Source: a virus. Taken from it: 27,435 nt of DNA. The stretch spans positions 1 through 27,435 of the IMG/VR virus record IMGVR_UViG_3300022225_000003; one strand, written 5' to 3'. Made by a program: the position numbers and the translations under genes. Every line of letters starts with the position of its first letter. Position 1 is the first letter of the stretch. The notes under the pieces are model-generated. The model had not been told where the DNA came from. It did no database searches and worked only from the letters and a program-made list of their open reading frames with translations. Below, one piece after another: positions 2,592 through 23,101 of this stretch.

Positions 2592-2662
2592 GGTCACGTA
2601 TCCAAATGGTTAGGTACTGGTCTGCAAAACCAGGCATGTGGGTTCGAGTCCCACCGCGACCT
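2592..2662 (+). tRNA. tRNA-Cys (GCA)
   Basis: The acceptor is GGTCACG/CGCGACC with one mismatch, the anticodon arm CTGGT-CTGCAAA-ACCAG and the T arm GTGGG-TTCGAGT-CCCAC, with discriminator T (correct for Cys identity, U73). CCA is not encoded. Confidence 0.92.
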
Positions 2663-2683
2663 CTAAAAAAAAGTTAAAAAAAA

Positions 2684-2715
2684 TTAGGATATTAAAAAAA
2701 ATAGTTGTATATTTG
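2684..2715 (+). promoter_or_regulatory. Promoter, TTAGGA box and Bacteroidota -7 element
   Basis: TTAGGA at 2684-2689 and TATATTTG at 2708-2715, a full TAnnTTTG match, are at the class spacing of 24 bp. It would drive the small gene at 2767 and the long structured RNA region beyond it. Confidence 0.75.
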
Positions 2716-2766
2716 TATAACAAAAATATTTAAGGATTGAAAAAAGTTAAGAAAAAAGGAAAAGGA

Positions 2767-2925
2767 ATGAAAACTCGTAGAGTGTTCGCACTCGAAAGAT
2801 TAGAGTTCCAATTGAATCGTGGTAGTAAAGTATCAAAAACGAATAACGATTTAATTCCTTTAACAGATAAAGATAAAAATCGGATTGAACGTGAAATAGA
2901 AACACTAAAATCCAGAATAAATTAA
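2767..2925 (+). CDS. Small basic hypothetical protein
   Basis: The 52-residue highly charged product is rich in Arg and Lys, with a predicted helical C-terminus (heptad-like, around residues 32-52). It is not recognised. I chose the ATG at 2767, which has a purine-rich stretch (AAAAAGGAAAAGGA) just upstream; an in-frame TTG at 2737 would add a Lys-only tail and is unlikely. It is the first ORF after the TATATTTG promoter and the last before about 1.7 kb without credible genes. Whether it is translated or is only the 5' part of the structured transcript cannot be decided here. Confidence 0.45.
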   Translation: MKTRRVFALERLEFQLNRGSKVSKTNNDLIPLTDKDKNRIEREIETLKSRIN

Positions 2926-3452
2926 GTTCATAAACGTATTGAAAATATTGGGTGGTTTGACATCCATTTGATTCGGCTTCGGTCGTTTCAATAAAAGATA
3001 AAATACCGCAAGGTATCAAAAGGGTGGTCTTTCACAGCCATTCACCATTCACGTGGCCTATTTAAATAAGCAACATTCTAACTATCACCAAGATAGGACA
3101 TCACACGTCAACTGTGGTGGATATGGAGTAAGTTGGAGAATAATAGTCCCTTTGGTAAGGATAAGGTTAGTGCCTAACGGTGAGACCAAAAGAGGGTAGT
3201 ACCTCACTATTATTCACACTAACCAACGAAACCAAAATCGAATAAGTTGTAGTCTTTGAGTTCAAGTACTCACCAGTATTAGAGCAAGAATTCATTATCA
3301 GAGTTGAAAGGAAACATACAAGTTTCCGTAGTAAACTTGAAGTAACGCACAGTAGGATTGGTACTCCGAAACGTAGTTTACGTGTCGCATTTTATACCTC
3401 AAAAGGGTACGAAACGACTGTTAGGGCACGTAGAAGTGAACCCAATAACTTT
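2926..3452 (+). ncRNA. Candidate giant structured RNA, 5' part (no ORF)
   Basis: This gene-free stretch is dense in hairpins. CGGC-TTCG-GTCG (2974-2985) has a cUUCGg tetraloop, and ATACC-GCAA-GGTAT (3003-3016) a GNRA loop. CTATC/GATAG is at 3082-3096. A long nested arm at 3138-3215 has GAATAATAGT/ACTATTATTC outside, then TTTGGT/ACCAAA, then GTTAG-TGC-CTAAC at the tip. Further hairpins are TGAGT/ACTCA (3257-3272), GGAAAC/GTTTCC (3310-3327) and ACGTA-GTT-TACGT (3371-3383). GGTTAGTG (3165-3172) can pair instead with CACTAACC (3217-3224). AGCCATTCACC (3036-3046) is fully complementary to 3670-3680, across the tRNA. Large ornate RNAs such as GOLLD and ROOL are known in phages next to tRNAs, but I cannot confirm membership. 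Confidence 0.6.
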
Positions 3453-3525
3453 GGAAAGTTAGCTCAGTTGATAGAGCGCTTGCATTGAAAGCAAGAGGTC
3501 GTGGGTTTAATCCCCGCACCTTCCG
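3453..3525 (+). tRNA. tRNA, TGA anticodon, short variable loop
   Basis: The acceptor is GGAAAGT/ACCTTCC with one mismatch, the D arm GCTC/GAGC, the anticodon arm CTTGC-ATTGAAA-GCAAG and the T stem GTGGG/CCCGC with loop TTTAATC. The discriminator is G. The anticodon reads UCA (Ser) and G73 suits Ser, but the variable loop is only 5 nt, whereas bacterial tRNA-Ser has a long arm. It is embedded in the structured RNA region. Its charging identity is uncertain. Confidence 0.8.
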
Positions 3526-4140
3526 TCATTAAGTTGATACAAACGCAAAGCCCCTAACGGTAATAGAGAACAAATTACCTAAATCTACAATCTTCGGATA
3601 ATGTAGAGTTTCAGAATCTCGCAAGGGGGACGAAATTTAATTGGAGTTTGCATCTAATCTCTTAGCGGAGGTGAATGGCTCGCAAGGTCAAGAGAATAAC
3701 GATAGTTGAGTAGTTCTGTTACGATAAGAGAATAGCCACTCTTTAAAAAAGGCGGTAATGTTGGTATACTTACATGTTGTAAGTGGATAAGTTTTTAATG
3801 GTTGGGATGCACCTAATCAGTACGGAAACGAAAGTATTAACACATAACCTGTAATCTCACGGTTTTATGGAAATGAATTAACGCATCGAATATCGGATGT
3901 TGGTTATAATTGGGGGCTCGTTACTTCCCATTTCCACAATTAAAAAGCACGTTATCCTTTTGCGTTAAAAAGGTTCATCTATGAATTGAATAGTCGGTAG
4001 TTTTTCGTAGAGGTGGGTCAGCCCGTGAAATAAAACCTCTAGCGTTGGTCACGTTCGGTAAATGTGGTAGGGTACGTTCTTAGCCTGTAGATTTGCAATC
4101 AGAAGAACAACTCCCGTTGGGTGCACACCAATGGGAACAT
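3526..4140 (+). ncRNA. Candidate giant structured RNA, 3' part (no ORF)
   Basis: It has no credible ORF and continuous hairpins. CCCCT/AGGGG (3551-3555/3624-3628) closes a domain with GGTAAT/ATTACC (3559-3579) and a TCTACA/TGTAGA hairpin (3584-3607) capped by a UUCG loop. Others are TCTCTT/AAGAGA (3658-3695), AAGAG/CTCTT (3726-3743), ACTTACA-TGT-TGTAAGT (3768-3784), AATTG/CAATT (3908-3941) and CCTTTT/AAAAGG (3956-3973). TAGAGGT/ACCTCTA (4008-4041) has an inner GGG/CCC, GTTCTT/AAGAAC (4076-4108) an inner GATT/AATC, and TCCCGTTGG/CCAATGGGA spans 4112-4136. The loop of 3658-3695 holds the complement of 3036-3046. It runs up to tRNA-Leu at 4141. Confidence 0.6.
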
Positions 4141-4215
4141 GCCTCGGTGGACAAAATGGTAAAGCCGCTTGATTTAGGCTCAAGAGATTTGTGGGTTCGA
4201 CTCCCACGCGGGGCA
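4141..4215 (+). tRNA. tRNA, TAG anticodon (Leu-like), short variable region
   Basis: The acceptor is GCCTCGG/GCGGGGC with one weak pair, the anticodon arm CTTGA-TTTAGGC-TCAAG gives anticodon TAG followed by G37, and the T arm is GTGGG-TTCGACT-CCCAC, with discriminator A. The 5' end and D region look like a Leu tRNA. The variable region is only about 6 nt, whereas normal Leu tRNAs carry a long arm, as the Leu(TAA) at 490 does. The D stem is weak. Confidence 0.75.
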
Positions 4216-4573
4216 CTTTAACTTAAAGTTTTATTTTTATATACTTATATATATATAACAAACAACGCTCATACAAATAAAATATATTAAGTGGTAAGTA
4301 CATGAGTTACTTCGATAGGGCGGGGATTCCCCGTACATAAACTCAAATTCGCTCAGTACAACTTTCCCTTATATGACATAACAATGGTTGAAGCCAGTAC
4401 ATAATAAAACCGAGTACGTGAGTTTCAGTATCACCCCACCAAACGATACCGAACAAAAGCCGGATATCATTGTTTACAATATTGAGTAGTAGTAATAACA
4501 CGAGTTACTTCGAAAATTAGACAGATTAAATTAGATAACATACTCTGTTAACTAATTCTCTACTCAATCACAT
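4216..4573 (+). ncRNA. Structured untranslated stretch after tRNA-Leu
   Basis: No credible gene is seen in these 358 bases. CGGGG-ATT-CCCCG (4321-4333) lies inside TGAGTT/AACTCA (4303-4308/4340-4345). A longer arm ATTGAGTAG/CTACTCAAT (4481-4489/4560-4568) encloses AATTAG/CTAATT (4515-4520/4552-4557) and ACAG/CTGT. The phrase GAGTTACTTCGA occurs twice (4304 and 4502). It probably belongs to the same long transcript, ending at the terminator that follows. Confidence 0.5.
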
Positions 4574-4610
4574 AAGGGATTTTAACTTCGGTTAGAATCC
4601 CTTTTTTTTA
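4574..4610 (+). terminator. Strong intrinsic terminator
   Basis: AAGGGATT (4574-4581) pairs with AATCCCTT (4596-4603) and continues into TTAAC/GTTAG with a cUUCGg loop, giving a 13-bp stem followed by eight T. It ends the tRNA and structured RNA block. Confidence 0.92.
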
Positions 4611-4635
4611 TATAAAATTTAAAAAAATAATAATC

Positions 4636-4848
4636 ATGAAAAAAGTAGAAAAAGTATATTCACAGATAAAGAATAAAGGTAAAGATGCTAACGATCAACC
4701 ATTTTGGTCTGAATGTTATCACGAAGAAGATGTAACAGATGAAATGTTATCATCAGAAAAACAATGGTATTGTTACCATGTAAAGTTTGATGGGGCTACC
4801 CCTATCCAACTAACTAAGGTTGTAAAACTTAGTAAAACAATTAATTAA
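4636..4848 (+). CDS. Small acidic hypothetical protein
   Basis: The 70-residue protein is not recognised. It has a basic N-terminus, an acidic middle with a Cys (SECYHEEDVTDEM, about 25-37) and an aromatic stretch WYCYHVKF (about 43-50) that may form a beta strand. There is no signal or membrane segment. The ATG at 4636 follows an A-rich leader with no Shine-Dalgarno sequence, normal for Bacteroidota systems. It stands alone 25 bp after a strong terminator, so it needs its own promoter, which I do not see clearly. After its stop the -1 frame stays open to 4934 with coding-like sequence. Confidence 0.6.
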   Translation: MKKVEKVYSQIKNKGKDANDQPFWSECYHEEDVTDEMLSSEKQWYCYHVKFDGATPIQLTKVVKLSKTIN

Positions 4849-20051: not shown

Positions 20052-21110
20052 ATGTATTATTTCATGACAGCATCAAAAGATGCAACAATATATAAACAAC
20101 AAGAAACCCAAAACTCTGGGTTAGATGAGGTATTAGAAATTTCAAAAACCTACGTGGGTTCGTTGTTAGATATAGCACATACGTTGATTAAATTTGAAAC
20201 GAGTACGGTTGATTCATTGATATCAAATGGTGAGGTGACTGCATCTTCGGTAGAACTTATTCTCCGTGAATGTGAAAGTGATGCGGTTCAAACTGAATAT
20301 TCGGTATACGCACATCCAGTATCACAATCATGGGAAATGGGACTCGGTACTAGATTTGATGATGTTACTGTAAATGGTGTAACGTGGAATCGAAGAAGAA
20401 CCAACACAAACTGGTTATCAGGTAGTTATGCCACGGGAACAACGGGTTCAGCAACAGGTGTTGGTGGAACTTGGTACACGGGTTCAGAGGCAACACAATC
20501 ATTTAATTATCAAACAACGGATATAATGATGGACGTTTCATCATCATTATCAGATTGGATAGAGGGTACAATTCCAAATGAGGGATTTATATTGAAATTA
20601 AGTGCAACTGCTGAAAATAATGTATTGGATTATGGACAACTTAAATTCTTTGGTAAAGAAACGAATACCATATATCAACCTACAATTCGTATAGGGTGGG
20701 ACGATGCAGTATTTGCAACGGGTTCATTGACTGAATTAACGGCAGCTGATATTTCAATTAGATATAAACGATTAAAAACAAGATATAAAACAGGAAGTAC
20801 ACCACGAATTACAGTAATAGGACGTGAAAAATATCCATTAAAAACATATACATCACAATATTCATATACTGATGTAAAATATTTACCAAGCACTAGTTAT
20901 TATCAGATTAAAGATGCAGTAACACAGGAAATACTTATACCATTTAGTGATTACACTAAGATTAGTTGTGATTCAACTGGTAACTATTTCAAGTTGAATT
21001 TAACTAATTGGCCTGTTAATAGGGATTACTACGTTGAGATAAAAATCAATAGAGATGGTGTAATAGAACATTTTACGAATGATGATTTAACATTTACATT
21101 AGAGGAGTAA
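20052..21110 (+). CDS. Virion structural protein with DNRLRE-like N-terminus
   Basis: The 352-residue protein has an N-terminal domain (about 1-205) starting FMTASKDATIYKQ, with SGLDEVLEISK (23-33), beta strands and a late WIEG...NEGFILK pattern. This resembles DNRLRE or carbohydrate-binding jelly-roll modules found in cell-surface and phage structural proteins. The C-terminal part (about 225-352) is beta-rich with many Tyr, Thr and Lys. No enzyme motif is seen. It follows gp6 by 17 bp and is probably a baseplate component, in the place of gp7/gp8-type wedge proteins; homology to these is not visible by eye. Confidence 0.72.
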   Translation: MYYFMTASKDATIYKQQETQNSGLDEVLEISKTYVGSLLDIAHTLIKFETSTVDSLISNGEVTASSVELILRECESDAVQTEYSVYAHPVSQSWEMGLGTRFDDVTVNGVTWNRRRTNTNWLSGSYATGTTGSATGVGGTWYTGSEATQSFNYQTTDIMMDVSSSLSDWIEGTIPNEGFILKLSATAENNVLDYGQLKFFGKETNTIYQPTIRIGWDDAVFATGSLTELTAADISIRYKRLKTRYKTGSTPRITVIGREKYPLKTYTSQYSYTDVKYLPSTSYYQIKDAVTQEILIPFSDYTKISCDSTGNYFKLNLTNWPVNRDYYVEIKINRDGVIEHFTNDDLTFTLEE

Positions 21111-21116
21111 TCAACA

Positions 21117-21686
21117 ATGAATGAAACAGTTAGTATAAAACGAAGTATAACTATTGGTGATGTAAAAGGCCTTGTTGAAAATGCTCGTTATATTGAGGGT
21201 GAACTTAAAAAAACCATTGATGTGAGTATTACCGAGTTAATAAAACCGCGGTCTAAAAAGAAAACTGCACTCGTGTTAAAATCCGCTTATACTGAATTAC
21301 AACGTAAATATGATGAATTATTAAGTAGGGCTGATGAATTGAGTAAACAACAAAATAAATCACAACAAACAATAACTAACTTACAATCATCTACTGAATC
21401 AGCAATTCAAACATCTGATGCGGATAGGAAAAGACGTGAACAGTTAGAATTGGATGTTATAAACAATAACAACAACCGCGTTGACTCTATTAACGAGTTA
21501 AACGAATTAAAAGAACAATTATTACAATCAAAACTTGATACCGTTTCAGCAAAAATAGATAGAGTTAGTAAACGAGATGAGGTGATACCAAACGATAAAG
21601 ACAAAAGTAGTGATACTATAATTACACAAAAGAAATCAATTGTTCCAGATATAGTAAAATGGCCAGTTCGGGGCAGTCTTAAATAA
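21117..21686 (+). CDS. Coiled-coil virion-module protein
   Basis: The 189-residue, strongly helical protein has a long coiled coil from about residue 55 to 150, containing LQRKYDELLSRADELSKQQN and LNELKEQLLQSKLD. The first 50 residues include basic and hydrophobic segments, and the C-terminal 35 residues are hydrophilic, ending VKWPVRGSLK. It is not recognised. It starts 6 bp after the preceding structural gene and ends 8 bp before the next, so it belongs to the operon. A fibre stalk, tape-like connector or assembly chaperone is possible. Confidence 0.7.
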   Translation: MNETVSIKRSITIGDVKGLVENARYIEGELKKTIDVSITELIKPRSKKKTALVLKSAYTELQRKYDELLSRADELSKQQNKSQQTITNLQSSTESAIQTSDADRKRREQLELDVINNNNNRVDSINELNELKEQLLQSKLDTVSAKIDRVSKRDEVIPNDKDKSSDTIITQKKSIVPDIVKWPVRGSLK

Positions 21687-21694
21687 CATTTATA

Positions 21695-23101
21695 ATGGCA
21701 ATATCACGATTTAAAGAAATAATAGATAATAAGGGATATAAAATAACCTTAGCTGATAGGACGATTTTTGAACGAAGTGTTACTAAATCGCCGTTTGGGT
21801 TGGATAGTACATTACCCAATCAACATAATAATACTGATGTTATTGAATTTATGTTATTCGATTCAAACAACAATCAATTACCACAAGGTGATTCGGGTAA
21901 ACTAGTTAGATACGTTTATTTAGATGATGCAAATATTAATGAATATATTACAATATCAACCGTAGATGATAATAGACACATTGATTCAAATCAATATGTA
22001 ATAAATGCAGAAAAATTAATTAAAGACGCGGGATATTCAAATGGGATATTTAACGTACAAATTACTTTATTAAATAGACGTATTGGAACTGATATAACAA
22101 TTGAGGATAAATTATGGATACATGATATATCACCATCACGAACTGAAATACGTGTGATACCTGTAAAGGGTAATACTGATGATACTGTTATAGCTGATTT
22201 ACAAGAGCGATATAATCTTTTTTTAAAAGATGGACAGTTTAGAGATGATACAATGCACTTTGTTCATGAATTCATAGAACAAATTAATTTACACAAAGTA
22301 TTATCTAACATGTTAACATCACGTGGTGATACAATTTCTAGTAAATCATATATTGATATAATTAAAGATGAATTTAAGATTTATGATTTTGATAAATTTC
22401 TTAATGATGTTCGTTCAACATATATAGAAGCTATGATTTACTTTGTATCAAATTGTGATTATAATCCATTATCATTAAATTATGGAAAACCATTACCTGA
22501 TGATGTTAGTGTAGCATTATCAGTAATTGAGATATATGATACAGCCGTGGATATTATTGCATCCGTAGTTGATTCTGTATTACCATATCGTGAAATTATC
22601 AAAGACAGTGTTTTTGTTGAAGAAACCAATGTTAATATTGATGAACTGAAGGAAGTTATTAAGAGTGATAAAATAATTGAACCCCGTGAAATAAAAGAAA
22701 TCATACATAAACGTCCTCCACGTGAGGATGAACTAATACCTGACACATTAGTTACAAAAACATTTTATATGTGGTCTGATAGGGGGTACATTGAATACGT
22801 TAACGAACACAAAAAACCAACCGTGATTAAAGGTGTTGAATATGATGAATTAAATATATCATATATTGGTAAACCTAAATTTACGGGGGATATCCGTGAA
22901 ATTCAAAAAATGAAGATATCGAATAAGATTTGTAATGATCCACGTGCTTCTAATTATGGTGAGGTGGGTGTATGTGAATATAAACAAATAGATATGATTA
23001 CTCATAAATTACCTGAAGATAAAAATATCACGGTATACAAGAAAACAAAGAAAAATAAGAAATTAACGATAGATGGTAAAGTGGGTTTGCGTGTGGAATA
23101 A
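21695..23101 (+). CDS. Virion structural protein, Cys-Asp-Pro motif near C-terminus
   Basis: The 468-residue protein is beta-rich in the N-terminal 165 residues, helical and mixed in the centre (about 175-330), and has a C-terminal section with a motif like Bacteroidota surface-protein repeats: KICNDPRASNYGEVGVCEYK (about 408-427). That parallels the fuller motif in the next gene. No enzyme motif is seen. It lies in the late operon with the coiled-coil protein and precedes a gene with its own late promoter. A tail or baseplate appendage is likely from context, but the exact role is unknown. Confidence 0.7.
   Translation: MAISRFKEIIDNKGYKITLADRTIFERSVTKSPFGLDSTLPNQHNNTDVIEFMLFDSNNNQLPQGDSGKLVRYVYLDDANINEYITISTVDDNRHIDSNQYVINAEKLIKDAGYSNGIFNVQITLLNRRIGTDITIEDKLWIHDISPSRTEIRVIPVKGNTDDTVIADLQERYNLFLKDGQFRDDTMHFVHEFIEQINLHKVLSNMLTSRGDTISSKSYIDIIKDEFKIYDFDKFLNDVRSTYIEAMIYFVSNCDYNPLSLNYGKPLPDDVSVALSVIEIYDTAVDIIASVVDSVLPYREIIKDSVFVEETNVNIDELKEVIKSDKIIEPREIKEIIHKRPPREDELIPDTLVTKTFYMWSDRGYIEYVNEHKKPTVIKGVEYDELNISYIGKPKFTGDIREIQKMKISNKICNDPRASNYGEVGVCEYKQIDMITHKLPEDKNITVYKKTKKNKKLTIDGKVGLRVE

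Follow-up and report, generated by a model that had tools for sequence, protein, structure and literature searches.

Does the long stretch without genes in this phage tRNA array encode a known class of large RNA, and what role does the tRNA inside it play? The window (the whole stretch of DNA analysed here) is an IMG/VR virus record of 27,435 bases with a tRNA array, in which ARAGORN finds seven tRNAs. Its genes include those for the baseplate wedge and for a PhoH-like protein, and its baseplate protein is 38–42% identical to proteins of Flavobacterium Immutovirus and Microcystis phage Mel-JY01. GOLLD RNAs lie in phages or prophages, often close to tRNAs, and this virus record, with its tRNAs and its baseplate and PhoH genes, offers such a setting. 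A first-pass annotation had proposed that positions 2926–4140 form a single ornate RNA around a tRNA, of the GOLLD or ROOL type or of a new class.

Most of the non-coding stretch is a GOLLD RNA

The plus strand between 2926 and 4635 contains no open reading frame of at least 60 aa and the longest within 2926–4140 is 48 aa, in agreement with the first-pass view that the region holds no credible ORF; a protein-coding reading of 2926–4140 was rejected on this basis. The Rfam covariance search that had been recommended returned RF02032 (GOLLD) at 3377–3863, covering the full model (positions 1–416 of 416) with 160 bits (gathering score 150) and an E value of 2.4e-43 in the whole-window search, and the same search gave no match in 14 control genomes. 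Because this match is full-length and above the gathering score, and because the 5' domain covaries (see below), we regard it as practically certain that the 1.2-kb stretch is indeed non-coding and consists mostly of GOLLD RNA. ROOL, a large phage RNA that lies near tRNA islands and forms a cage (PMC12286853), gave no match at its gathering score, nor at E up to 5 within 2600–4700, and the window RNA is thus not ROOL. The proposed interpretation was therefore upheld for GOLLD, whereas ROOL fell away and a new class of ornate RNA was rejected on the RF02032 match. The features of the locus are as follows.

2930–3868, plus strand: GOLLD RNA, about 940 nt (RF02032 and blastn homology; 5' end estimated from homology)
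3377–3863, plus strand: GOLLD 3' domain, the whole Rfam model, with a tRNA in its linker (RF02032)
3441–3545, plus strand: GOLLD variable linker (Rfam alignment; linker position from PMC12286853)
3846–3868, plus strand: last GOLLD hairpin, then a short T-run
4574–4603: strong terminator downstream of GOLLD (13-bp stem capped by a UUCG loop, then a T-run)
263–335: tRNA-Met, without encoded CCA

We collected GOLLD loci by motif scans of IMG/VR followed by Rfam verification, which yielded several dozen; a pattern scan of the genome collection gave many chance matches, and subsequent Rfam checks confirmed GOLLD in only some of the records tested. The closest relatives, L234 and L241, are 72.7% identical to the window over 3116–3866 (blastn) and can be aligned to about 2930, while L264 and L277 show 69% identity to the window over the full alignment. 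The window baseplate gene is present in the L264 and L277 records at 68% identity and in the L234 record at 45%, and its PhoH gene is found in L264 and L277 at 72% identity over residues 47–219. Since the sister records share baseplate (and PhoH) genes and have the same RNA with a tRNA in the same linker slot, this phage lineage keeps GOLLD and its linker tRNA as a pair. No GOLLD was found in Immutovirus or Microcystis phage Mel-JY01, the annotated phages with the nearest baseplate proteins; a blastn search with the region returned only tRNAs from annotated phages, and a search for homologues through the small upstream ORF at 2737–2925 found none. Tandem GOLLD pairs were seen at L112 (G026 20212–20657 and 21539–22019, with a tRNA-like linker in the second copy alone) and at L177 (G065 C7 366610–367082 and 367581–368046).

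Where does the RNA end? The fold of 2926–3863, where many hairpins had been noted, is strongly stabilized, at −247.9 kcal/mol compared with −220.2 kcal/mol in dinucleotide shuffles (z −4.33, 0/20), whereas the tail at 3864–4140 is no more stable than expected by chance (z −0.42). Homology with the closest relatives ends at 3866, which places 3869–4140 outside the RNA and shortens the extent originally drawn to 4140. L234 has the same last hairpin followed by TTTTTTTT, which resembles an intrinsic terminator. A reading of the whole of 2926–4140 as one larger RNA, or as a new ornate class, has in its favour that the tail also lacks a long ORF and that tRNA-Leu begins only at 4141, but the Rfam model and the homology both stop at 3863–3866, the tail shows no excess structure and L234 has a terminator-like T-run after the end of its GOLLD; we consider this extremely improbable.

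The strong terminator that had been placed downstream is present at 4574–4603, but the strong promoters claimed upstream found no confirmation, with eight sigma-70-like matches against 6.3 expected, which is chance level. A Bacteroidota-type TATATTTG box was noticed, by eye only, at about 2710. A second non-coding stretch 3' of tRNA-Leu, at 4217–4603, has a fold z of −3.31, much of which the terminator hairpin may supply; it holds the recurring GAGTTACTTCGA and has no Rfam match. An HNH endonuclease and a homing endonuclease lie between tRNAs at 1002–1511 and 1637–2449, and GOLLD with an HNH endonuclease gene has been reported from mycobacterial tRNA clusters (PMC9569102).

A covarying 5' domain beyond the reach of the Rfam model

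The Rfam model stops well short of the 5' end of the RNA. Its length of 416 positions fits the 3' region of env-38 GOLLD (nt 421–833), upstream of which env-38 has a distinct 5' region of some 420 nt (PMC12286853), the less conserved part of GOLLD RNAs. In the window, structured non-coding sequence of about 430 nt occupies the corresponding place. The 5' domain, traced in an alignment of 34 relatives, has the following elements.

2949–3376, plus strand: 5' domain beyond the Rfam model (34-sequence alignment, covariation)
2949–2966: first hairpin of the RNA
3002–3017, plus strand: conserved hairpin with a GCAA loop and 6 bp, all pairs covarying
3031–3035, plus strand: 5' strand of a long-range helix, partner 3436–3440
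3436–3440, plus strand: 3' strand of the same helix, partner 3031–3035

RNAalifold predicted 52 pairs for the 5' domain and the 3377–3434 arm, 48 of them with changes on both sides. Across the 34 relatives 90.8% of the 5' domain cells are paired compared with 37–44% when the partners are slid, some of this excess being expected since the structure came from the same alignment, and the covariation score is 0.80 against 0.24 for shuffled alignments. The helix 3031–3035/3436–3440, which spans 400 nt, has all five of its pairs changed on both sides and is 90.9% paired. Homologous regions thus conserve base pairs and carry no reading frame of at least 60 aa, so the covariation check and the refutation test set out in the first-pass annotation both came down on the side of a structured RNA.

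Some of the pairings in that annotation fared less well. The nested arm at 3138–3215 does pair, and comparable pairing is kept in sister phages. The 11-bp complement between 3036–3046 and 3670–3680 exists, but 43/400 shuffles contain such a match and it is absent in L234, L264 and L291, indicating chance. The CCCCT/AGGGG pairing (3551–3555/3624–3628) said to close a multibranch domain can also be drawn, yet it is not a conserved pairing: in the GOLLD consensus 3617–3629 forms its own hairpin, which conflicts with it, and L234 has CCCCC opposite AAGGT. What stood of the original description is a non-coding, structured stretch with the nested arm, a tRNA and a terminator; its extent and these two pairings did not stand, and its promoters went unconfirmed.

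A profile of the 5' domain recovers 26/35 held-out long-hairpin GOLLDs, compared with 1/69 of the short type. The window RNA is of the long type: its 3'-end hairpin is longer, with a motif spacing of 77 nt rather than about 59 nt as in the largest group. On this distribution we treat the long-hairpin type, with its own covarying 5' domain, as a GOLLD subfamily.

A tRNA-like module in the linker

The embedded tRNA noted in the first pass was recovered by both ARAGORN and Rfam.

3453–3525, plus strand: tRNA-like module in the linker (ARAGORN; Rfam tRNA, 59.1 bits)

The module has a 73-nt body with a short variable loop of 5 nt, a TGA anticodon at 3486–3488 and no encoded CCA, the last of which may mean little because other window tRNAs such as tRNA-Met at 263–335 also lack CCA. 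It does not have the long variable arm of a functional tRNA-Ser(UGA), and the TGA module is thus not a usual serine tRNA. Six of the seven acceptor pairs form, with the terminal pairs intact and a mismatch at A3457–C3520 (5:68), and in the elbow A3471 (position 19) stands with T3508 (position 56). L264 is mismatched at 5:68 as well, with A-A where the window has A-C, and the anticodons vary among the sisters, from TGA in the window to GTT in L264 and CTT in L234. A competing hairpin over the acceptor strand, AACUU/AAGUU, was dropped since its sequence is kept in the sisters with zero covariation. The neighbouring tRNA-Leu(TAG) at 4141–4216 lacks the usual long variable arm, and similar tRNA-Leu genes occur in Cellulophaga phages.

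Linker tRNAs usually have broken acceptor ends

We scored linkers for tRNA-like folds across the relatives, ignoring acceptor pairs 1–3 in the choice of fold and requiring fairly good inner stems. Such linkers occur in 37/62 non-redundant long-type GOLLDs and in 0/34 of the short type, whose loci were partly Rfam-checked and otherwise assigned by motif spacing; 5/225 shuffled linkers passed the score. All seven acceptor pairs form in 3/35 linker tRNAs of ordinary order compared with 321/415 ordinary tRNAs of the same loci, a control set picked by ARAGORN and so biased to good acceptors. Against the same controls, pair 1:72 forms in 15/35 versus 376/415, pair 2:71 in 19/35 versus 393/415, and CCA is encoded in 2/35 versus 294/415 (Fisher p for the acceptor and CCA contrasts, 3e-10 to 3e-16). 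In most of the 35 the D, anticodon and T stems are kept, as are the inner acceptor pairs. Paired elbow changes are seen as well, A19 with U56 in the window and L236 and A at position 18 with G at 55 in L142 and L157; as proof of selection they are weakened by low-rate occurrence in the controls. Two features appear to be new, namely that tRNA-like linkers are confined to the GOLLD subfamily with its own 5' domain and that the acceptor ends of linker tRNAs are usually broken. This pattern suggests that in related phages the linker tRNA usually stays joined to GOLLD and is not cut out for use.

The linker tRNA could instead be a working gene with GOLLD as its precursor, released by RNase P together with tRNase Z or RNase E and given CCA by the host, leaving GOLLD in two pieces or maturing it only after cleavage. 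The window tRNA is among the better ones, and its intact terminal acceptor pairs and 59.1 bits count in this direction and against a module that is kept; so do the good acceptors with encoded CCA in L142 and the second L177 copy, the full acceptor stems of L291 (as also of L142 and L130), and the position of GOLLD within tRNA arrays. We nevertheless find a working gene rather unlikely: linker tRNAs form pairs 1:72 and 2:71 at close to chance rates and rarely encode CCA, the TGA anticodon sits on a body without the long arm of tRNA-Ser, and the pseudo-tRNA within Mycobacterium aubagnense GOLLD had no detectable expression when its product was tested (PMC6582537).

Frayed acceptor ends and changing anticodons are also what would be seen if the tRNA were a passenger, landing by chance in a disordered linker that tolerates insertions and then decaying without function, and the tRNA arrays around GOLLD in the window and several relatives, together with linkers without tRNA in the same subfamily, fit such an origin. 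Decay is limited to the acceptor end, however, with the other stems mostly complete in the 35 (although the scorer itself asks for reasonably good stems), several of the elbow changes come as pairs, which also happens at a low rate in controls, and none of the 34 members of the other subfamily has a tRNA linker. With the permuted forms described next, this makes a chance passenger quite unlikely.

Circularly permuted tRNAs in GOLLD linkers

Four linkers hold tRNAs in permuted order.

L049, 4769–4850: permuted tRNA in GOLLD linker
L149, 5380–5461: permuted tRNA in GOLLD linker
L117, 13567–13665: permuted tRNA in GOLLD linker
L273, 3709–3792: permuted tRNA in GOLLD linker

L049 and L149 have identical GOLLD 3' domains, so the set represents three unrelated relatives; the GOLLD match of L117 scores 138 bits, below the gathering score, with E 6e-40. 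In each the T arm comes first, followed by the acceptor 3' strand and an encoded CCA; a short loop leads into the acceptor 5' strand, after which come the D arm and the anticodon arm. The break thus falls in the variable loop. After rejoining they are recognized as tRNAs by ARAGORN, which 0/58 shuffled linkers were, and read from the sequences the acceptor strands are fully complementary in 3/3, G-U counted. Perfect acceptors in three unrelated records argue against a decaying passenger, and end trimming of the permuted versions cannot give an ordinary linear tRNA, which argues against a working gene. A limited literature search found no prior report of permuted tRNAs in GOLLD.

Circularly permuted tRNA genes occur in algae and archaea. 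Like these, L049, L117 and L273 have the tRNA 3' half before the 5' half; unlike them, these three are phage genes with the break in the variable-loop region and lie inside GOLLD. The linker tRNA of the window, in contrast to these three, is not permuted. Permuted tRNA-like genes with GGGGGAG/CTCCCCC acceptors were also seen in L297 (7219), L298 (1298), L299 (5563) and L300 (918–960), large phage records without a GOLLD match, so the permuted form is not GOLLD-specific. In L300, tRNAs on the reverse strand (oriented about 6296, 6536 and 6843) have apparent ~60-nt variable-loop insertions ending in ACAAGC(A/T), and the same motif precedes its permuted gene, as if a small intron were involved.

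No permuted tRNA was found in the window itself, where the sole suspicious element, at 581–749 and extending to about 820, is a probable phage-encoded permuted tmRNA (RF04321, tmRNA_permuted, 46.6 bits with gathering at 47, E 2.4e-8) in which T-arm/ATACTCCA precedes GGGGTAT. Three of the phage records with permuted tRNAs also carry tmRNA genes (L049 8196–8535, L117 5489–5882 and L299 4121–4529), one of the permuted alpha type.

Discussion

Known GOLLD RNAs rise in expression during phage lysis. Env-38 GOLLD is a protein-free 14-mer by cryo-EM, with symmetric kissing loops, L21a and L21b, between its chains and with a variable linker early in the 3' region that lies inside the cage and is unresolved in that structure, and phage tRNAs have already been reported in some GOLLD linkers (PMC12286853), so that the window RNA is a further member of a known family. 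It has the full 3' domain, an upstream 5' domain and a variable linker in about 940 nt, and it lies in a phage genome with a tRNA array and an HNH endonuclease nearby, all as in GOLLD; it differs in its longer 3'-end hairpin, its subfamily 5' domain and its tRNA-filled linker. The M. aubagnense GOLLD likewise contains a tRNA-like gene and lies in a tRNA cluster of phage origin that also has an HNH endonuclease (PMC6582537), although the window comes from a different host group.

By analogy with env-38, copies of the window RNA may assemble without protein into a hollow cage in which the 5' domains would form caps and the 3' domains rings, with the linkers pointing inward. Comparison of the relatives suggests that the tRNA module would stay covalently joined, placing up to 14 tRNA-shaped domains in each cage. 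Broken acceptors, varying anticodons, the permuted forms and the restriction to one subfamily point to such a kept module, which would most likely serve as an internal docking handle or a decoy for something that binds the tRNA body (the ribosome, RNase P, a synthetase or a nuclease are candidates) and would not be released for decoding. As a whole, we consider this explanation, a GOLLD cage with a permanently joined docking or decoy module, somewhat probable. Our confidence in the mechanism is moderate: cage formation, the inward linker, non-release and the docking or decoy role are what we infer.

In most relatives the module would hang by a frayed acceptor end, whereas in the three permuted relatives it would hang by the variable-loop side with the acceptor end intact. 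A broader version is possible, if doubtful, in which the whole subfamily builds cages with covalent tRNA modules that sequester or present tRNA-like domains during infection. Ordinary-order modules would then be blocked from maturation by the broken acceptor end, and permuted modules, tethered to the cage by the variable loop, would have a free and potentially chargeable CCA end.

Structures of GOLLD cages are known. Should the linker tRNA prove to be a kept module and not a gene, the contents of the cage and its likely tRNA-body-binding partners would become directly testable, and the permuted forms would offer a natural contrast, with the position the same, the tether opposite and the acceptor end intact.
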